Of a stretch of DNA of 64,000 nt, positions 46,064-55,737 are shown piece by piece. The position numbers were made by a program, and so were the translations under genes. Every line of letters begins with the position of its first letter. Position 1 is the first letter of the stretch. The notes beneath the pieces were generated by a model. That model saw nothing but the letters and a program-made list of their open reading frames with translations. It had not been told where the DNA came from and did no database searches. Where the stretch lies: the NCBI RefSeq assembly GCF_000010345.1, contig NC_009663.1, positions 2,356,001 through 2,420,000 of the forward strand, in the 5' to 3' direction. The DNA comes from Sulfurovum sp. NBC37-1 (GTDB lineage Bacteria > Campylobacterota > Campylobacteria > Campylobacterales > Sulfurovaceae).

Positions 46064-46127
46064 TGGCAGAGAGGAAGGGATTCGAACCCTCGATGAGTTG
46101 CCCCATACACGAGTTCCAGTCGTGTCC
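46064..46127 (-). pseudogene. 3' fragment of tRNA-Ser(GGA), island attachment site (attL)
   Basis: The minus-strand sequence from the anticodon stem on is intact: ACACGA-CTGGAAC-TCGTGT (anticodon GGA, Ser), variable arm, T arm with GGTTCGAATCC, acceptor strand and CCA (TGGCAG at 46064). The 5' half (acceptor 5' strand and D arm) is absent; upstream sequence (46128 onward) is unrelated AT-rich DNA. This is the displaced 3' end left when an element integrates into a tRNA gene. The intact tRNA is expected at the right end of the island, beyond the window. Confidence 0.82.
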
Positions 46128-46284
46128 ATTATAAAATAATCAATATCCCCAGAAAGCCGTTCCTATCGTACTTTACAGAGTTTCAACTTCACCCTTTTTC
46201 TCTCCGTGCTAACAAGTAGATAACCAAATACCCTCTCAAATATATTCGAATAATATTCTAATTCAATAATAACACCCCAATATT

Positions 46285-46484: not shown

Positions 46485-46540
46485 TAATCAAAACATTCCA
46501 GATGCATATATATATTGAAAATGTATCTTAAGGAATGATG

Positions 46541-47680
46541 ATGAGAAATACAAGAAAAAGAGAACGGGTTGCAACCGGGATCTATAAAAGAATCGATGCA
46601 AAGGGTGAAATTATTTATGATATAAATTTCAGGGATGAATTTGGGAAAAATAAGTTTCTTAAAGTGGGAAGAAAGTCAGATGGGGTCACCGTTGCCTATT
46701 GCAAACAGTATAGAAGTAAAATTATCAATATGAAATATTTGGGAGAAGATGTATCTAACATAAGAAAGAAATCTTCTATAACGTTTGATGATATCACAGA
46801 AGATTACTTTGAGTATGTGAAGTATGCAGACTTTAAAGAACCTCAATCATTTGCTAATCGCTATAGAGATCATATCAAGGATAGTCTTGGGCATTTACCC
46901 GTAGAAAGCATTACTAAAAATGATATCAATAATTTGATTATGCTGCTTAAAGATAAAAATTTGGCACCTGCAACAATTGACCGGATCAGACAGCAGGTAT
47001 CTGCTACATTTAATGTGGCAATAGGGAAAGAAAAATGCAGAAACAATCCGGCAAGTGTATCAAGAGTTGATAGCAGCTCCTTGATGCGTTTGAACAAGAA
47101 AAGCATTAATAATGCAAGAGAAAGGTACCTTTCCAAGGATGAAGCCAATCTTCTGCTTAGCGAACTCAAGCTAAGAAGATTTGATGTTTACTTCATGGCT
47201 TTGCTTGCTTTAACTACTGGGGCAAGAGCTGGAGAAATATTGAAAATTCAGTATAAGGATATCGACCTTGAAAACAGATATATTAACTTGGTTGAAACCA
47301 AAAATGGATCTAGTCGCAAAATAAAAATTACCTCAAAAGTCTATGATATTCTAAATGAAATAGAGTTTGAAAGTCCAAACAAGTACCTGTTTGCAGGTAG
47401 CAAACATGATCATCTTCAAGCTATACCAAACATATACTCTATCATAGTAGGAGAATTATTCAATAGTGAGCTGGATTCAAGAGATACAAAACATAGGGTA
47501 TGTTTCCATACGCTTAGGCATACATTTGCAAGTTGGCTTGCCATTAATGGAACACCTATCTTTACAATCCAAAAGCTTATGGGGCATAAAGACATCAATA
47601 TGACACTTCGATATGCGAAGCTAAGTCCTGATGCCGGCGTAGAGGCAGTAAATAGTTTGGAAGAGAAGTTTATAGAATAA
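46541..47680 (+). CDS. Tyrosine recombinase/integrase
   Basis: About 379 aa. The N-terminal part (KRERVATGIYKRIDAKGEI) is an Arm-type DNA-binding region. A core-binding SAM-like region follows (ITEDYFEYVKYADFK, IKDSLGHLPVESIT), then the catalytic domain with TGARAGEIL (Arg), HTLRHTFASWL (HxxR) and LMGHKDINMTLRYAKL (His, Tyr nucleophile). Three ATGs lie close together; AAGGA at 46530-46534 is 6 bases from the third (46541), which is chosen. It lies 0.4 kb from the tRNA-Ser fragment and is the likely integrase of the island. Confidence 0.93.
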   Translation: MRNTRKRERVATGIYKRIDAKGEIIYDINFRDEFGKNKFLKVGRKSDGVTVAYCKQYRSKIINMKYLGEDVSNIRKKSSITFDDITEDYFEYVKYADFKEPQSFANRYRDHIKDSLGHLPVESITKNDINNLIMLLKDKNLAPATIDRIRQQVSATFNVAIGKEKCRNNPASVSRVDSSSLMRLNKKSINNARERYLSKDEANLLLSELKLRRFDVYFMALLALTTGARAGEILKIQYKDIDLENRYINLVETKNGSSRKIKITSKVYDILNEIEFESPNKYLFAGSKHDHLQAIPNIYSIIVGELFNSELDSRDTKHRVCFHTLRHTFASWLAINGTPIFTIQKLMGHKDINMTLRYAKLSPDAGVEAVNSLEEKFIE

Positions 47681-47762
47681 GTAGCCCATATATACATGTT
47701 TGTGTTTGATCAAAAAGAATGATATCTTCTTTATATATTATTATCGAAGGAGAATCAACACG

Positions 47763-48863
47763 ATGGGAAAACATACTATAATTAACGATGCGAAAGATAT
47801 GATACAAGTAGATAAAAAAGGCTACTATATCTATAGAGATAATTGCCAAATAATAATGAAAAAATTAAAAGAGGGGAAATATGATGGTGTCCGTAATTAT
47901 TATAAAGAAGCAAGAGAAGCAGGAGATTTAGACAGGGAAAAACCATATGCAAGAGAACTGAATCGTATACTCTGGGGGTTCCTACGTGCAAACAAAAAGA
48001 GTAAAAAGGATTTACAGATTCTCGATACAGCTATAGCCATATTTCTTGATACAATTAGTACACTAGAAAGTATAGAAAATTCTAAACCAGTATCAGAATA
48101 TCTTTATAATCATGGCTATAAATCATATGTAGACTTTGCCCAATATCTCAACAATAAATATGGTATTGATGCCAAGGAATATCAGCAAGCAAAATCAAAT
48201 GGATTTAAAATTAATGAACAATCTTCCGAGGATGATTTACTGTATGGAAATGAACCAATATATAATTCTTCAAGAATGACAGAGGCAATTCTCTCCATAC
48301 TTAAAAATAACAAAAAGGAATTATTGAAATCCAGTGATTTTGGATACTCCATCTTGGAGCATGGACTAAAACAAAAAGAGATATATCCAATTTATAAGCA
48401 AAATTATGGATTGCCTCCTCTTCAGGTCATTAAGTCAACCAAAGTGGTGCTAGAATTTAGTATCCTTGATGATAAAAAGTATATTGATCATATGCTAAAA
48501 GAAGCGTATGGGAAAGAAAAAAGATTTCATAGGATTACATCATCATCAGAGAAGAGTAGGCTTCTTAGTGCCATAAATCACAAAGAAGAAAAATTTGTAT
48601 CTATTAATATGTTACAAAAAGCACTTATTCTATACCAGTATACTCAGGATGGAGAAGAAGTATTAGATAGCAAAGATGCTTGGTATATTTTTATTTTCCA
48701 TGCATTCTTATTTGCATACTCAGAAAAATCAAAAACGACTGACATGCAACCTTGCAAGAATCTAGTATATAGAAGTAGAGATGTAATCACCTACTCTGTA
48801 CTAAAAAACGAGATAAAAAAACAAACAGAAATAATAGAATCTTTATTAAATTTAACTCACTAA
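47763..48863 (+). CDS. Island protein of unknown function, 366 aa
   Basis: Not recognised. Acidic/Lys-rich and mostly helical, with no signal peptide or membrane segment. Tyr/Lys-rich N-terminal region (KKGYYIYRDN), a Glu/Asp-rich middle, and a C-terminal hydrophobic helix pair (AWYIFIFHAFLFAYSEKS). An AAGGAG site sets the start at 47763. It lies just after the integrase on the same strand and is separate (200 bp) from the FtsZ-like gene. AT-rich like the rest of the island. Confidence 0.65.
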   Translation: MGKHTIINDAKDMIQVDKKGYYIYRDNCQIIMKKLKEGKYDGVRNYYKEAREAGDLDREKPYARELNRILWGFLRANKKSKKDLQILDTAIAIFLDTISTLESIENSKPVSEYLYNHGYKSYVDFAQYLNNKYGIDAKEYQQAKSNGFKINEQSSEDDLLYGNEPIYNSSRMTEAILSILKNNKKELLKSSDFGYSILEHGLKQKEIYPIYKQNYGLPPLQVIKSTKVVLEFSILDDKKYIDHMLKEAYGKEKRFHRITSSSEKSRLLSAINHKEEKFVSINMLQKALILYQYTQDGEEVLDSKDAWYIFIFHAFLFAYSEKSKTTDMQPCKNLVYRSRDVITYSVLKNEIKKQTEIIESLLNLTH

Positions 48864-49064: not shown

Positions 49065-50078
49065 ATGGATAAAATTAACATCAAAGTTGTTGGTATTGGT
49101 GGCGGTGGAGGGAGCAGTGTTGCCTATATGGCAGATACGGGACTTGAAAATGTTGATTTTATGGTTATTCACACAGACAAGTCAGCTCTTGATGCTTCGC
49201 CTATAGAAAATAAAATACTATTGGGTGGGGGTACAGATATAGAGATGGATCCTGCCGCAGGGGAATCGGCTGCTTTGGCGAATTATGAGGAGATAAAAAC
49301 AAAGCTTCACGGAGCAGACCTGATTTTGATAATTGCCGCATTTGGAGGAGCCACAGGAACCGGTGCTGCACCCATTGTTGCCAGAGCTGCTAAAAAAGTA
49401 GGTGCTTTGGCAATCCCTATTGTGACGACCCCATTTAAATTTGAAGGCAGAAAGAGAAGAAATATCGCCAACCAGGGAATTGAAGACCTGTTGGCTGAGT
49501 GTGGCTTGGTTATCGTAGTTCCAAATGAAGAAATTTTATCAATGGTACTAGACAATCTGGGTATCCGTGAAGCTTTTTATATAATAGACAAGCTTGTTTG
49601 TTGGATTGCAGGCAGCATTACGAAAAGTATGGTTTCTTGTGGAGAAAAAGATGTCTGTCTTGATTTAGAAAATATAAAAGCCGTATTGGGGCACAAAGGC
49701 ATTGCATGGGTAGGTACATCGGGGTATATAAACAGCATGAGTGCCACATCTGCATTGGAAAAGGCTATTGGGTCTCCACTGCTTCATGATGTATCCCTTG
49801 ATGAAGCCAAAGGTATTTTGGTTCATTTTGATGTACATTCAAACTACTCTTACGATGAGATTGTTAAAGCAATGGAAATATTGAAAGAACATAGCGGGGA
49901 AGGCGTGCTGGTGAAGTTTTCTGTCTCAGAAAATAAATGCATGGACCCATATGAGTATAAAGCTGCATTAATCGCAGTGGGTTTTGATGCTGACATGGAA
50001 GTGATTGCCAAATCAGATCCCCGTAAGTGTGAACAGGATGAAATTCTTGATGTTCCAGTTTTATTAAAGAGAGCATAG
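49065..50078 (+). CDS. FtsZ-like protein with altered GTPase residues
   Basis: 337-aa member of the FtsZ/tubulin superfamily, clearly FtsZ-related. GIGGGGGSSV (T1, residues 10-19), GGATGTGAAP (tubulin signature/T4, 94-103), TTPFKFEGRKR (121-131) and IGSPLLHDVSLDEAKGILV (C-terminal domain, about 235-253) are well matched. Changes: the FtsZ Asn187 equivalent, a guanine contact, is Asp175 (EAFYIID); in the T7 loop the NxDxxD pattern becomes CLDLEN (198-203), so Asn207 and Asp212 equivalents are Cys and Asn; the T3 loop is diverged. No linker or conserved C-terminal FtsA/ZipA peptide follows. These predict absent or weak GTP hydrolysis. It is on a mobile island, with a C-domain-only relative 92 bp downstream. 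Confidence 0.92.
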   Translation: MDKINIKVVGIGGGGGSSVAYMADTGLENVDFMVIHTDKSALDASPIENKILLGGGTDIEMDPAAGESAALANYEEIKTKLHGADLILIIAAFGGATGTGAAPIVARAAKKVGALAIPIVTTPFKFEGRKRRNIANQGIEDLLAECGLVIVVPNEEILSMVLDNLGIREAFYIIDKLVCWIAGSITKSMVSCGEKDVCLDLENIKAVLGHKGIAWVGTSGYINSMSATSALEKAIGSPLLHDVSLDEAKGILVHFDVHSNYSYDEIVKAMEILKEHSGEGVLVKFSVSENKCMDPYEYKAALIAVGFDADMEVIAKSDPRKCEQDEILDVPVLLKRA

Positions 50079-50170: not shown

Positions 50171-50515
50171 ATGATCGCAGACAGAAACGATCCGCTGAGT
50201 ATGGCTGACTACTATACAATTATGCGTAAAAAAGGATACATCAACGGATATTATGGAAGCACTTCTATTGATAAAGTTGCAGAAGAGGTCAAGGTAAAAC
50301 TAGGGAAGGCTCTTTTGTCGGCGCAGGGAGTATCAGTCCTGTTGTATATGAATGAACGTATGCAGCAATCGGATATAGAAAATATGTGGTTGCAGATAGA
50401 GGCATTGATTCACCCAGGTGCAAGCATAATGCTTAACACTGAAACAGATAATGGCATCTCTGGCAATATGGTGGAGTATGAGGTCTTGTTGTCGGGATTT
50501 CATTACGATAATTGA
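50171..50515 (+). CDS. FtsZ C-terminal-domain-like small protein
   Basis: 114 aa. By eye it resembles the FtsZ C-terminal domain alone: GYINGYYGSTSIDKVAEEV (22-40) matches the segment after the T7 loop, GKALLSAQGVSVLLYM (45-60) the SPLLxxxxxxGAxGVLVNI strand, then helix SDIENMWLQIEALIHPGA, strand SIMLNTETDNGISGNM and VEYEVLLSGF, equal to IIGTxxDxxxxDEVRVTVIATG. There is no nucleotide-binding half. GGGAGG lies 4-5 bases before the ATG at 50171, favouring it over a start 29 codons upstream that would lie 6 bp from the FtsZ-like stop. Same strand as the FtsZ-like gene and probably co-transcribed. Fold match is by pattern only. Confidence 0.7.
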   Translation: MIADRNDPLSMADYYTIMRKKGYINGYYGSTSIDKVAEEVKVKLGKALLSAQGVSVLLYMNERMQQSDIENMWLQIEALIHPGASIMLNTETDNGISGNMVEYEVLLSGFHYDN

Positions 50516-50629: not shown

Positions 50630-52111
50630 ATGACCCTATCCAAATCCCAATACATCCGTGGCTTGCAATGCTACAAGTCACTCTGGCTTTATAAACATCA
50701 ACCCGAACTCAGACAAAAGCCAGATGTGCAAACCGAATCTCTTTTTGAAACAGGCTGCGAAGTCGGTGATCTTGCAAAAGAGCTTTTCCCAAATGGTATC
50801 GAGATAACTTTCAATAGCGATAACTTTAACGGCATGATAGCAAAAACCAAGGAGCTTATCGAAAGTGGTGCAGAGGTGATCTATGAGGCGACTTTCATGG
50901 AGGATGGCATTTTTGCTATGGCAGATATCTTGGTTAGAAACGGCAATATTTGGGATATCTATGAAGTTAAGGCTTCCACATATGTCAAAGAATATTACCT
51001 GGATGACATCTCCATCCAGTGGTATACCATCACGAAAGTGCTCGATCTTGGTCGTGCCTATATCGTGCATATCAACAACAAATATGTCCGAACAGGGGAT
51101 TTAAGTATCAGAGAGCTGCTAAAGAGGGAGGATATGACCGATATCGTTCTTGAACGGCAGGAAGAGATTCCCCAAAAGCTTCATGAGATGGAAGAGATAC
51201 TGAAAGGCAATGAACCTCATATAGATATAGGACCCCACTGTTTCAATCCGTTTGAGTGTGATTTTGTTCCATTCTGTTGGAGGCACATTCCTCAAAAGAA
51301 CTCCGTATTTGACCTCTCATACGCCAGAGGGAAACAGTGGGATCTTTATAGGCAGGGAGTACTGAGCATTGAAGAGATTCCGGATGACTTTTACCTTGGT
51401 GTCAATACAGCACTCCAGGTAAAACATCACAAATCGGGTGAAGTAAAGATTGACAAAGAGAAGATCTCAGAGTTTCTGGATACTATAGTATATCCCATTA
51501 ATTTCTTTGACTTCGAGACGTTTCAGGAGGCTGTACCCAGATTTGATAACCAAAGACCTTATGAGAAGATCCCTTTTCAATACTCTCTGCATATTCTCCA
51601 TGAAGACGGCATATTGGAGCACAAAGAGTTTCTTGGGGATGAAAACAGTGACCCCAGAGAGCTTTTGTCACAGCAAATACTTCAAGACATTGCTTCGACT
51701 GGGTCGATAGTAGCGTTCAGCCAATCTTTCGAGATCACACAGATTAAAAATCTTGCACAGGCAAATCCCAATTTGAGTGACGCACTGCTTGCGCTCATCG
51801 ACAGATTTGTCGACTTGGCATACCCGTTTCAACATAAGTACTATTATCATCCAGGGTTCAATGGCAGGTACTCCATCAAAGTGGTTTTGCCGACACTGTT
51901 CCCTGACAATGATGAACTTGACTATAAAAAACTTGGCTCAGTACAAAATGGCAGTGATGCAATGAATACCTTTGCCAAGCTGCATCTTTTGAAAGATAAA
52001 AACAAACGAGAGGAGATACGAAAAGACCTGCTTGCCTATTGCCGTTTGGATACTTTGGCGATGGTGAGGATATGGGAGAAGTTGAGGGATGCAGTTAACG
52101 AGAATGCTTAA
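50630..52111 (+). CDS. DUF2779 protein: Cas4-like nuclease fused to DEDD exonuclease
   Basis: 493-aa protein. The N-terminal half is Cas4/AddB-like PD-(D/E)XK: a Cys at 14 in YIRGLQCYKSLWL, the catalytic ExK in WDIYEVKAS (about 110) and a Cys triplet in HCFNPFECDFVPFCW (about 203-217), which would hold a 4Fe-4S cluster. The C-terminal half is RNase H-fold 3'-5' exonuclease-like: FFDFETFQEAVP (DxE), FSQSFEITQIKNLA, and LAYCRLDTLAMV (YxxxD). The pattern is DUF2779. Role unproven; DNA end processing or defence is likely. AAGGAG before the ATG; a PD-(D/E)XK gene follows 23 bp downstream. Confidence 0.85.
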   Translation: MTLSKSQYIRGLQCYKSLWLYKHQPELRQKPDVQTESLFETGCEVGDLAKELFPNGIEITFNSDNFNGMIAKTKELIESGAEVIYEATFMEDGIFAMADILVRNGNIWDIYEVKASTYVKEYYLDDISIQWYTITKVLDLGRAYIVHINNKYVRTGDLSIRELLKREDMTDIVLERQEEIPQKLHEMEEILKGNEPHIDIGPHCFNPFECDFVPFCWRHIPQKNSVFDLSYARGKQWDLYRQGVLSIEEIPDDFYLGVNTALQVKHHKSGEVKIDKEKISEFLDTIVYPINFFDFETFQEAVPRFDNQRPYEKIPFQYSLHILHEDGILEHKEFLGDENSDPRELLSQQILQDIASTGSIVAFSQSFEITQIKNLAQANPNLSDALLALIDRFVDLAYPFQHKYYYHPGFNGRYSIKVVLPTLFPDNDELDYKKLGSVQNGSDAMNTFAKLHLLKDKNKREEIRKDLLAYCRLDTLAMVRIWEKLRDAVNENA

Positions 52112-52134: not shown

Positions 52135-53304
52135 ATGGAAGATAGAGAATATAAAGAATTTATTCAAACAACATATGAAAGATTTAAAAATAAATTAAAT
52201 CAAAAAAAACTTAGAGGGGTTAATGATTACAATCTGTTGACAACGGTACTGAAAGAACATGATGAAGTTAGACTTCATTCCAGAATGATCGGCTCACTTT
52301 TAAATCCTGAAGGGTTACATTACCAAAACACACTTTTTTTAGATAAATTTCTAAATCTAATTGATTTACCTGATTTTTTCGATGATACACAAAAAGTTAC
52401 ACTATGTAGAGAATGTGAAAATATTGATCTGTATCTGACAGACGGAAAGAAACATATAATCATAGAAAACAAAGTGTATACAGGTGATCAGCCGGCTCAA
52501 ATTAAGAGATACATCGAAAAAATAGTGAAGAAAAATCCTAAGATGGGCAAGAAGGATCTGGTTGTTATTTATCTATCGATAGATAGAGACAAGCCTACCG
52601 AATTGAGTCTTGGGAAAGAGAAAAAAAATCAAACTTCTGGATATTTTGAGATTAATACAGAAAAACAACTTCAGTATATAGGTTCTGAGAATAATCTCAA
52701 AGATAGAAAATTTAACTATAAATCCATTCATTATGGTGCAGAAATACTGAATTGGCTGAAAGTATGCAAAGAAGAGATTGAAAATATTACAAATCTAAAT
52801 TTGGCAATACAGCAATACATTGATGTTATAAAAATGCTCACAAATACATATACTGGAGGTATAAAAATGGAAAAAATAAAGTTTGCAAAAGAACATTATG
52901 AAACACTTGTTGAATTTGATAAGATGATGAAAGAATATATTGATTCTGTTAAAGAAAAAGCTGTTTATGCACTAGGCGAGAATGACTTTAATGCTTATAA
53001 AATAGAGGAATGGGAAAATAATGATAAGGCAATAAGAATAAAAAACAACAAAAATGAATGGGGGCCAAATACAAATATTGCACTTGTATTAAAATCCAAT
53101 GGCTCTTTTTCGATAATAATTTATGTATATGACAGACCGGAAGTAGCGGAATCAAAACTTGCTATGCTGGGTAGGATGGAGTGGGAAGGCAAAATCGGGT
53201 ATTTTAGGGTTGGTTGTTACAAAAATCTTAATGATGTTTATGAAAAGATTAAAACAGCAGCAGAAGAACTTAATAAGTATTATAAAAACATAATCCAGAC
53301 ATAA
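52135..53304 (+). CDS. PD-(D/E)XK nuclease-superfamily protein
   Basis: 389-aa protein. N-terminal domain has LHSRMIGSLLNPEG then the active-site core NIDLYLTDGKKHIIIENKV with Asp98, Glu111 and Lys113, followed by DQPAQIKRY (Gln-containing helix), as in PDDEXK_4-type nucleases. The C-terminal domain (from about 245) has no named match, with alternating strands and helices. An AGGAGG site precedes the ATG. A second, excellent ribosome site and in-frame ATG lie at 52855/52867. It lies in a run of same-strand genes with the DUF2779 and SLOG genes. Confidence 0.82.
   Translation: MEDREYKEFIQTTYERFKNKLNQKKLRGVNDYNLLTTVLKEHDEVRLHSRMIGSLLNPEGLHYQNTLFLDKFLNLIDLPDFFDDTQKVTLCRECENIDLYLTDGKKHIIIENKVYTGDQPAQIKRYIEKIVKKNPKMGKKDLVVIYLSIDRDKPTELSLGKEKKNQTSGYFEINTEKQLQYIGSENNLKDRKFNYKSIHYGAEILNWLKVCKEEIENITNLNLAIQQYIDVIKMLTNTYTGGIKMEKIKFAKEHYETLVEFDKMMKEYIDSVKEKAVYALGENDFNAYKIEEWENNDKAIRIKNNKNEWGPNTNIALVLKSNGSFSIIIYVYDRPEVAESKLAMLGRMEWEGKIGYFRVGCYKNLNDVYEKIKTAAEELNKYYKNIIQT
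52855..52869 (+). promoter_or_regulatory. Internal ribosome-binding site and start inside the PD-(D/E)XK gene
   Basis: GGAGG (52855-52859), 7-base spacer, ATG (52867), in frame with the main gene (codon 245), giving MEKIKFAKEHYETLVEF and a 145-residue C-terminal product. The spacing and strength equal those of the gene's own start. Confidence 0.55.
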
Positions 53305-53773: not shown

Positions 53774-53939
53774 CTAGGAGTCTGTCGGACTGAAGCCATT
53801 TTTGCAAAAATAGACTGTTTTTAAGGAAAATCCAAGCCCCTACGGACAAAATAAGCGTACTTTCTCTTATGCAAAATTTTCTGTATCCCAAAAGTGTCTT
53901 ATTTTGCCTATTTGAAAAGTGAGTCCGACAGACTCCTAG
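53774..53939. mobile_element. MITE with perfect 14-bp terminal inverted repeats and CTAG duplications
   Basis: Non-coding 158-bp element (53778-53935) starting GAGTCTGTCGGACT and ending with the exact inverse AGTCCGACAGACTC, flanked by CTAG on both sides (53774-53777, 53936-53939) as a 4-bp target duplication. It entered the leader of the DnaA-like gene just before its AGGAGG ribosome site and regenerated CTAGGAGG. No transposase inside; the mobilising IS is elsewhere. A frame running through it into the next gene is not real coding. Confidence 0.9.
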
Positions 53940-53950
53940 GAGGAATTATT

Positions 53951-54711
53951 GTGATTAAAGAAAAAAGTTTTGAGAATTTTGTGGTTGCTGACAGTAATCA
54001 TCTTGCATTTGAAGTAGCGAAGAAGGTGTGTTCTTCCAGGGATATCCTACCAAGCCCCGTTGTTTTTTACTCCTCTTCGCCCAATGGGAAAACACATCTG
54101 CTAAAAGCCATTTACAATGAGTGCATCAAATGGGGAGGAAAGCAATATATGTTACCGTTGAAGATTTCGCTAATAAATATGCGATGTATTTAATGTCCCA
54201 AACAATGAATCGGTTTAGAAATAAATATCAAAGGAATGATGTTTTGCTCCTCGATAACTTTGACGATATATCCAATATGTTTGAAACGCAAAAGCAATTG
54301 TCAAAATTTATTGAATTTTATAACGAAAACCATAAAAATATAGTGATTGCCATGAGTAGGCATCCTGTCAGAACGTTTTCTATTTCTGATAGGTTAAAGA
54401 ACCATTTACTAAGAGGTCTATCTTGTGAACTAAAAGGAATGCACAGAGAAACAATAGACAAACTTATTCACAAAAAATGTCATGAACTTGGTTTGAAACT
54501 AAATGATAAAATGGTTCATCGTATTAGTAAGTACCATAAGGAGATACCGAAAATAGAGGGAATTTTACATAAAGCATATGCATTGTCTGATCTGCTTGGA
54601 CAAAAAGTTGATATTGCACTTATTAAGCAACTAGTCAAAGAGTTTAAAAATGAAGAGAAAAAACAACTCACCTCAAAAAAAGTGAAAGAAAATAGGTATA
54701 TTTTATTATAA
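53951..54711 (+). pseudogene. DnaA-like AAA+ ATPase without DNA-binding domain, frameshifted
   Basis: Joined product is about 253 aa, matching DnaA domain III: a phosphate-binding loop YSSSPNGKTHLLKAIYNE (GGVGLGKTHLLHAI in DnaA; first glycines lost), AIYVTVEDFANKY, Walker B DVLLLDNFDD, arginine finger DRLKNHLLRGL and sensor-2-like KIEGILHKAYA. No DnaA domain IV (HTH) follows; it ends in a short basic tail. The frame breaks near 54140: 53951-54193 is frame one, ending at a stop; the rest continues at -1 to 54711. A slip at A-AAG (54139-54142) would join them exactly. Start is GTG at 53951 with AGGAGG 7-8 bases before it. Confidence 0.78.
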
Positions 54712-54813: not shown

Positions 54814-55737
54814 ATGCCATATAAAAAAGATTACGACAAAATACTGACCCGTCTGACGGTTATACTTTCCCGCCTCTACGACAGAGAAGCACTTTCTGTT
54901 ACGGAGCTTGCCGAAGAGTTCAATGTGAGTGGGCGCACCATCCAAAGAGATTTCAATGAAAGACTCATTTCTTTTCCTATCTATCAGGATAAAAAGAAAT
55001 GGAAGATGCAGGATGGGTTTCGAATAGAAAAAATCAAATCCATTGAAGAACAGCTTGTTTTGGACATAATAGAAAAAATGACTGAAAGTATAGGTGGTAA
55101 ATTTGCTACAACCTCACATAAGTTACTCTCTAAAATAAAAAATGAAGATTTTAACCCCATCTATACAAAATTGAATATAGAAGATATTAGTGATAGGTTT
55201 GATGATATACAACTCATAGAAAAAGCCATCAAAGATAAAACCGAATTAGAATGTAGTTATGAAAATGAAAGAGAGGGAACTTTTAGAGCTAATATACAAC
55301 CTCTTAAAATAGTTAATTATGAAGGCTTTTGGTATTTGGTTGCCTTTAAAGATGGGACTGTTCAAAAGTACTACATTAAAACTCTCTCAAACATACAGCC
55401 AACGGCTAAAACGTTTACAGTAGATGAAGATATAGAAGAGTTATTGAAGAACTCAATAAACATATGGTTCAAATCAGATATTGAACCTTTTGAAGTGAAA
55501 ATTTATGCAGATAAAGTTGCTGCAAAATATTTTAAACGCAGAGCATTACCCACACAAAGCATAGAGACCTTAAGGGAAGACGGTACTATGGAGTTTGTTG
55601 TGACTATTACTGACGAGATGGAGATTATACCTATTGTTAAATATTGGTTGCCTCATTTGAGGATATTAGAGCCTTTGTGGATTCAAGAGTTGATAAATGC
55701 AGACCTCAAAAAATATTTAAAGGAAAAAGATGAATAA
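54814..55737 (+). CDS. WYL-domain transcriptional regulator
   Basis: 307-aa regulator: N-terminal winged HTH (LSVTELAEEFNVSGRTIQRDFNER, about 29-53), central WYL domain (PLKIVNYEGFWYLVAFKDGTVQKYYIKTLSNI, split here as motif at about 167-198), and a C-terminal WCX-like extension (VKIYADKVAAKYFKRR). Such proteins bind nucleotide ligands and control phage-defence operons (BrxR/CapW type). The stop overlaps the start of the next gene by 8 bases. Confidence 0.92.
   Translation: MPYKKDYDKILTRLTVILSRLYDREALSVTELAEEFNVSGRTIQRDFNERLISFPIYQDKKKWKMQDGFRIEKIKSIEEQLVLDIIEKMTESIGGKFATTSHKLLSKIKNEDFNPIYTKLNIEDISDRFDDIQLIEKAIKDKTELECSYENEREGTFRANIQPLKIVNYEGFWYLVAFKDGTVQKYYIKTLSNIQPTAKTFTVDEDIEELLKNSINIWFKSDIEPFEVKIYADKVAAKYFKRRALPTQSIETLREDGTMEFVVTITDEMEIIPIVKYWLPHLRILEPLWIQELINADLKKYLKEKDE

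Follow-up and report, generated by a model that had tools for sequence, protein, structure and literature searches.

A divergent FtsZ paralogue and a stand-alone FtsZ C-terminal domain in a defence-type island of Sulfurovum sp. NBC37-1, tentatively read as mimics of the host division protein

Introduction

What would a bacterium do with a second FtsZ whose catalytic loop has changed? In Sulfurovum sp. NBC37-1, an open frame at 49065-50078 (+ strand) of the DNA analysed here (64,000 nts, hereafter the window) encodes an FtsZ-like protein of 337 aa, a fast-evolving paralogue of the host FtsZ with a short linker and a retained C-terminal FtsZ peptide. An earlier note on this DNA read its T7 loop and helix H7 as substituted and expected a protein with little or no GTP hydrolysis, which would form stable filaments or dead-end copolymers with the host FtsZ, possibly with an altered nucleotide preference. 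The neighbouring gene for an FtsZ C-terminal domain and the defence-type island around both genes are absent from that account.

The FtsZ-like protein and its kinship

The frame is preceded by a good ribosome-binding site (aaaaggacattccATG). Both domains of its product clear their Pfam thresholds, PF00091 with 103.2 bits (cut-off 33) and PF12327 with 27.8 bits (cut-off 27), while the ftsZ equivalog model of NCBIfam, TIGR00065, gives 219.6 bits, below its cut-off of 295.2. The host FtsZ is 42% identical over 314 aa in pairwise alignment; it is the single other tubulin-family match in the genome (G000, one contig of 2,562,277 bases) and adjoins an apparent ftsA. Among solved structures, 49 of the 51 matched chain sequences carry FtsZ names (1e-38 or better), and the other two, 3zid and 4b45, have E near 4e-4. 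The model that AlphaFold predicted for the full-length protein from its sequence alone had a mean pLDDT of 51.5 and was left aside. The C-terminal peptide (50034-50075, + strand) ends EILDVPVLLKRA, its host FtsZ counterpart being DILDVPTFLRKQMD. This conserved peptide of FtsZ serves FtsA/ZipA-type partners, and its retention behind a linker of 19 aa, where that of the host FtsZ has 51 aa, suggests from the sequence that contact with an FtsA-like partner may still be important.

A quick tree placed the protein within the cluster of its genus (SH-aLRT 86-87, not starred), a position made unsure by the length of its end branch, which is 10. Searches of 175 family and 398 order genomes found no close orthologue of the full-length protein. 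PHROGs gave no match. Plasmid and phage tblastn matches were rejected as relatives, all of those listed being below 36% identity. One of them, a C. jejuni plasmid record (NZ_CP048757.1, L033), carries a long run of apparently chromosomal genes, ftsA-ftsZ included, beside resistance genes; this stretch may have been misassembled or be a segment that was excised.

Loop residues

The protein was aligned with E. coli MG1655 FtsZ and with 78 distinct Campylobacterota FtsZ frames from the loci collected for this analysis. The replacement of the T7 pattern N-x-D-x-x-D by C-L-D-L-E-N (residues 198-203; codons at 49656-49673, + strand; E. coli N207 to D212), pointed out in the earlier note, is real, the pattern being kept in 78/78 FtsZ. 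Asn207 (78/78) has become Cys198, Phe210 (78/78) Leu201, Ala211 (77/78) Glu202 and Asp212 (78/78) Asn203; Asp209 (78/78) is retained as Asp200. The T3 loop, described as unlike that of FtsZ, is indeed so, with a four-residue deletion relative to the host FtsZ and with Gly69 changed to Asp and Gly71 to Glu.

The supposed base-binding change has to be withdrawn. Asp175 (codon at 49587-49589, + strand) had been taken for a substitution of the guanine-contact Asn of helix H7, given as E. coli Asn187. The correct E. coli residue is Asn186, and 78/78 Campylobacterota FtsZ, the host's included, have Asp there, as does S. aureus FtsZ by alignment. Asp175 is therefore the residue typical of the family, and it was the premise of the predicted change in nucleotide preference, a wrong forecast that this correction averts. 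At the next position, E. coli Asp187 (Asp in 66/78) corresponds to Lys176. The T1 and tubulin-signature loops had both been called intact. The T1 glycines are retained, but Asn24 (78/78) is replaced by Ser17 in that loop. In T4 the description fails: Gly103 and Gly107 (each 78/78) are Ala92 and Ala96, and GGGTGTG has become GGATGTG. The tubulin signature in T4 is GGGTG[ST]G, which the protein breaks by one Gly to Ala change.

Taken with the typical FtsZ, the protein shares the fold, the domain order, the T1 glycines, Arg142, Asn165, the usual H7 Asp of Campylobacterota and the C-terminal peptide. It differs in its T7 loop (C-x-D-x-x-N against N-x-D-x-x-D), in T4, in its shorter T3 and linker, in falling below the equivalog cut-off and in its location in an integrase island. 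Asp45 and Glu138 are retained as well. Identity among the 78 FtsZ reaches at least 97% in 132 columns, of which 60 (45%) are changed in this protein. The protein is thus fast-evolving overall, and the T7 loop is struck slightly harder than the average, but not uniquely.

Such breadth of change raises the question of decay. The gene could be a duplicate ftsZ carried as cargo of a mobile island under weak constraint, its T7, T3 and T4 changes being drift. The altered near-invariant columns, the long end branch, the lack of an orthologue in the family and order genomes searched and the frame-interrupted DnaA-like gene in the adjacent region all fit this explanation. However, the full-length frame is open behind its good ribosome-binding site, the T1 glycines, Asp45, Glu138, Arg142 and Asn165 are retained, the C-terminal peptide survives the shortening of the linker, and relatives of the neighbouring domain-only gene recur across families. 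We consider decay improbable on balance.

Expected effects of the loop changes

The T7 loop works on the nucleotide of the next FtsZ subunit (PMC8936486, in the part available). Because of this role, and with T3 and T4 altered in addition, it is a fair inference from the sequence that GTP hydrolysis by the FtsZ-like protein would be lowered. The same source, in that part, reports suppressed assembly for each of the S. aureus FtsZ single mutants N208L, D210N and D213N, a loss seen for N208L and D213N by light scattering and sedimentation (PMC8936486). N208 and D213 match the positions of Cys198 and Asn203; the same two T7 positions are thus concerned, and the Asp213 to Asn change is identical. 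The S. aureus proteins each carry one mutation made in the laboratory and are otherwise active FtsZ, whereas the FtsZ-like protein adds its T3 and T4 changes. For the pure protein, these mutants contradict the earlier expectation of stable filaments, which, by this analogy, would be its least likely outcome. The argument leaves dead-end contact with the host FtsZ untouched, and the protein might cap host FtsZ or join it in dead-end copolymers.

The same residues bear on two explanations in which the protein would polymerize productively. It could form a filament of the element's own, serving partition or positioning in the manner of TubZ or PhuZ with altered kinetics, as tubulin-superfamily proteins of jumbo phages do (PMC7824862, in the part available). 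We regard this as very unlikely: the best solved matches are all FtsZ, making the protein a relative of FtsZ and not of TubZ, the element is chromosomal and has no PHROGs match, and T7 residues required for assembly in S. aureus are missing. Just as unlikely would be a working second FtsZ, a minor and slow subunit in host division comparable to plastid FtsZ1/FtsZ2. The C-terminal peptide is retained and plastids do have rings of two FtsZ (PMC8142252, likewise in part), but N207, D212, T3 and T4 are altered, the equivalog score is too low and the 175 family genomes hold no orthologue.

A stand-alone FtsZ C-terminal domain next door

Downstream, at 50171-50515 (+ strand; ORF 50171-50512), lies a gene for a protein of 114 aa with its own ribosome-binding site, GGGAGGT. 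Pfam gave no FtsZ_C match for this protein up to E 1. A search of the 175 family genomes with this one sequence gave relatives in G079 (43% identity, 1.2e-21) and G047 (37%, 3.4e-15), and weak matches to the C-terminal domain of true FtsZ. With the three-row profile A3, matches at E up to 0.01 came from 274 of the 396 order genomes, and those listed were mostly full-length FtsZ (best such 2.6e-10). The AlphaFold model made from three sequences reached a pLDDT of 79.7, residues 1-20 being low. All 50 Foldseek matches listed for it were FtsZ (best E 4.8e-7), and VIA-align superposed it on FtsZ with Z 12.8 over 99 aligned residues (rmsd 2.5 Å). Judged by profile, predicted model and PDB matches, the protein is an FtsZ C-terminal domain standing alone. 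It has Asp at the position of Asp212 and Ser at that of Asp209, the opposite of the full-length copy, in which Asp209 is retained and Asp212 lost.

The family was followed by running profile A1, built from three domain-only proteins, against the 175 family genomes, pursuing those with extra matches, and A3 against the order. From the family searches and the best of the order matches, at least 12 complete domain-only genes were counted in Campylobacterota: one in the window, two in G110, three in G079 and one each in G047, G069, G167, G432, G421 and G363. A match in G017 runs off its contig, and hence stays outside this count, although it forms the 13th row of the alignment. Left out of the count were a fragment at a contig edge in G062 and, as too large, proteins of G062 and G065 with an FtsZ-C-like part. 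The latter are of 446 aa (L145:2616-3953), near a WYL gene, and of 311 aa (L147:8835-9767). Three scans of viral contigs (query P0001, profiles A1 and A3) and a genome-contig search with P0001 found no relative; the genome-contig search with A3 found two MAG loci, corresponding to G079 and G047. Our literature search found no report of stand-alone FtsZ domains in defence islands, its scope lying mostly outside subscription journals.

The 13-row alignment has 108 columns and a mean identity of 25% to the host FtsZ. Start Met aside, its most conserved column is that of Asp212, which is Asp in 12 of 13 rows (11 of the 12 complete proteins). Asp209 is Asp in 7/12 rows and Asn207 is Asn in 4/12; several T7 segments lie close to the protein start, so that the alignment is less sure there. 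The conservation of Asp212 may reflect only the start of helix H8.

Proteins with only the N-terminal part of FtsZ were found in five genomes (G071, G094, G095, G110 and G098). Those of G071, G094 and G095 are minis of 102-107 aa with a common end point and 68-82% identity. The G110 protein has 181 aa (Pfam Tubulin, 6.5e-22), and that of G098 is degenerate (8.7e-11 to the FtsZ N-terminal profile). No WYL gene lies by the short minis of G071, G094 and G095 in the stretches read. The surroundings of the minis in three genomes of the genus (L137:9100-9504, L138:6183-6488 and L139:9478-9798) are dissimilar.

The island of the window

The left side of the island has a partial tRNA-Ser copy at 46069-46140 (- strand), its ends judged by eye from the sequence, and a tyrosine integrase of 381 aa at 46535-47680 (+ strand; PF00589, 3.1e-28). 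An ORF of 387 aa at 47700-48863 (+ strand), with no Pfam, PADLOC or PHROGs match, precedes the two FtsZ genes. These are followed, all on the + strand, by a DUF2779 / RNase H-like predicted nuclease at 50630-52111 (Pfam), a PD-(D/E)XK nuclease of the candidate defence family PDC-S26 at 52135-53304 (PADLOC, 1.3e-45), a DnaA AAA+ fragment at 53894-54711 and a WYL-domain regulator at 54814-55737, the sole WYL match in the 2.56-Mb genome. The WYL gene is not adjacent to the domain-only gene, from which it is separated by 4.3 kb. A macro domain lies in the same island just past the right end of the window. In PADLOC, only the neighbours match, through PDC-S26, WYL and some weak hits, and no model covers the FtsZ-like protein or the domain-only gene of the window. 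DUF2779 homologues also lie near the FtsZ C-terminal-domain genes of G110, G079, G047 and G432.

The DnaA fragment consists of two overlapping frames (53894-54190 and 54121-54708), of which the second is 34% identical to the host DnaA. The gene may be broken or frameshifted, or the split may come from a sequencing error. A perfect 18-bp inverted repeat (53774-53791 and 53922-53939) spans 166 bp immediately 5′ of the DnaA-like gene, and the segment resembles a small non-autonomous transposable element. Shortly past the right end of the window, at 64551-64638 in its numbering, there is an intact tRNA-Ser(GGA). The partial copy, left of the integrase, is inverted relative to it, which suggests integration followed by inversion. 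The left flank (45.9-46.7 kb) and the segment at 64.4-67.7 kb share no direct repeat of at least 12 bp.

WYL genes and defence neighbourhoods of the relatives

WYL genes recur beside the relatives. A WYL gene lies within 100 bp of 5 of the 12 complete domain-only genes (G047, G069, G432, G421 and G363) and within 2.1 kb of 8 of the 12, two of the three G079 genes sharing one WYL gene. At the observed WYL density (17 matches in 21 genomes), the binomial chance of this proximity is about 2e-14 for 100 bp and 2e-19 for 2.1 kb, figures that treat the loci as independent and serve as a guide only. The reverse test found an FtsZ piece at none of 15 other WYL loci (0/15), some of which adjoin CRISPR-type genes, named from the look of their sequences. 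Among the WYL loci, a weak match of L178 to the mixed profile was rejected as a nucleotidyltransferase by sequence.

Defence genes accompany several of these pairs. In G421, a DrmD-like helicase (3.9e-97) and a type IIG restriction-methylase (3.5e-299) come directly after the domain-WYL pair. The G432 island holds GmrSD (HEC-05, 5.5e-257), DUF2779, a PDC-S10 match and a SIR2-like gene, together with genes that look from their sequence like a type I restriction set. The G069 genes are followed by a PDC-S26 nuclease. These loci resemble the WYL-regulated defence loci described in the available part of PMC4012209, there as here with a WYL gene by nucleases and restriction genes, but the partner gene here is a piece of FtsZ.

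Possible mimics or inhibitors of FtsZ

We tentatively favour, as the leading explanation, that the full-length copy and the domain-only gene are mimics of the host FtsZ whose binding surfaces would decoy or sense phage FtsZ inhibitors; we infer this function from homology, context and residues. The FtsZ-like paralogue, sitting in an integrase-bearing island of defence type, would be paired with the domain-only gene as a mimic of the host FtsZ, and the two would work by their surfaces, not as a self-sufficient GTP-driven filament. They would display the T7/C-terminal face, the target of phage FtsZ inhibitors. Phage inhibitors would then be titrated by the mimics, or the linked nucleases or the WYL regulator would read the occupation of a mimic. 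Having lost Asp212 and changed in T3 and T4, the full-length copy would still resemble FtsZ while perturbing treadmilling less than an active second FtsZ would.

FtsZ is the target of P1 Icd, lambda Kil, T7 Gp0.4 and T5 Hdi, according to the available part of PMC11897509. Icd is predicted there to contact N207, D209, D212 and the H10-S9 region of FtsZ; resistance to Kil includes V208A, and resistance to Hdi includes F268V and G191S (PMC11897509). Hence the copied domain holds residues implicated for Icd, Kil and Hdi, with the difference from those systems that the island encodes the target domain and not the inhibitor.

We know of no inhibitor of Sulfurovum FtsZ. Supporting the decoy or sensor reading are the PDC-S26, WYL, DUF2779 and macro-domain genes of the island, the restriction and defence genes in the islands of relatives, the proximity of domain and WYL genes, the face implicated for Icd, Kil and Hdi, and the Asp212 kept in 11/12 proteins. 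It is weakened by the absence of an FtsZ piece at the 15 other WYL loci and by the many kinds of system that WYL marks. The distance of the WYL gene in the window, the N-terminal minis without WYL, the lack of a close orthologue and the chance that Asp212 merely starts helix H8 weaken it as well.

The same proteins could instead be effectors, the full-length copy and the free C-terminal domain both inhibiting the host FtsZ, an alternative that we hold to be rather unlikely. The T7 face of the free domain would dock on the nucleotide end of FtsZ and cap the filament, its retained Asp212 might also accelerate hydrolysis in trans, and the T7-impaired full-length copy would become a dead-end subunit of host filaments. 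On infection, these inhibitors would be released by the WYL regulator, thereby halting division. Asp212 is indeed retained in 11/12 complete proteins devoid of their own nucleotide site, assembly suffers in T7 mutants (PMC8936486, in part), the full-length copy has its C-terminal peptide, and the overlap and spacing of domain and WYL genes suggest co-regulation. Toxins that target FtsZ are known, such as CbtA (PMC5624674, in the part available). However, 5/12 domain-only rows that reach the Asp209 position have no Asp there and the full-length copy has an altered T7, which rules out trans catalysis as a general function; a block of division is also no obvious stop for a lytic phage.

SulA and MciZ (PDB 1ofu and 4u39) are small FtsZ binders, as the putative domain-only cap would be. 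They act by binding FtsZ and have unrelated folds, whereas the putative cap would be FtsZ's own C-terminal domain. If the proteins are effectors, this domain would constitute a natural filament-capping inhibitor. We prefer the decoy or sensor reading because pieces of several unrelated hub proteins occur in islands of this kind and because the proteins do not retain the catalytic residues as a set. If the proteins are baits, bacteria would shield their division machinery from phage takeover with harmless copies of the docking face. Under either reading, the domain-only FtsZ gene and the WYL gene form a small, testable pair.

Pieces of other host hub proteins

Right of the window, in the same island region, two adjacent ORFs (L057:5449-5667 and L057:5717-5989) encode stand-alone sigma-70 region 4 (3.9e-16 and 6.8e-13), the first of which matches part of the 622-aa frame taken as the host RpoD at 38% identity. 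A contig of G079 carries DnaA AAA+ (1.6e-68) and DnaA domain IV (3.9e-23) as separate genes. It also carries a ClpX zinc domain fused to SIR2 (L141:1884-2849; 1.7e-9 and 1.5e-21), next to the genes for a WYL protein and a domain-only FtsZ. In G087, a stand-alone ClpX zinc domain of 82 aa (L187:2798-3046) lies by a WYL gene. This theme of host-hub pieces across islands is a lead.

A wider hypothesis, which we consider doubtful, is that defence islands of Campylobacterota hold panels of such pieces as decoys or sensors of phage proteins, with the T7-impaired full-length FtsZ of the window as the most complete bait. The panel would comprise the FtsZ C- and N-terminal domains, DnaA AAA+ and domain IV, sigma-70 region 4 and the ClpX zinc domain, read out by WYL regulators, nucleases and the SIR2 enzyme. 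It would be a bacterial counterpart of the integrated-decoy principle in plant immune receptors. If the pieces are baits, the same islands would flag other host proteins attacked by unknown phage proteins.

Also to the right of the window, an ORF of 108 aa (L057:6108-6431) weakly matches the domain-only FtsZ profile (10.5 bits, E 0.04) and is possibly a further FtsZ C-terminal domain.
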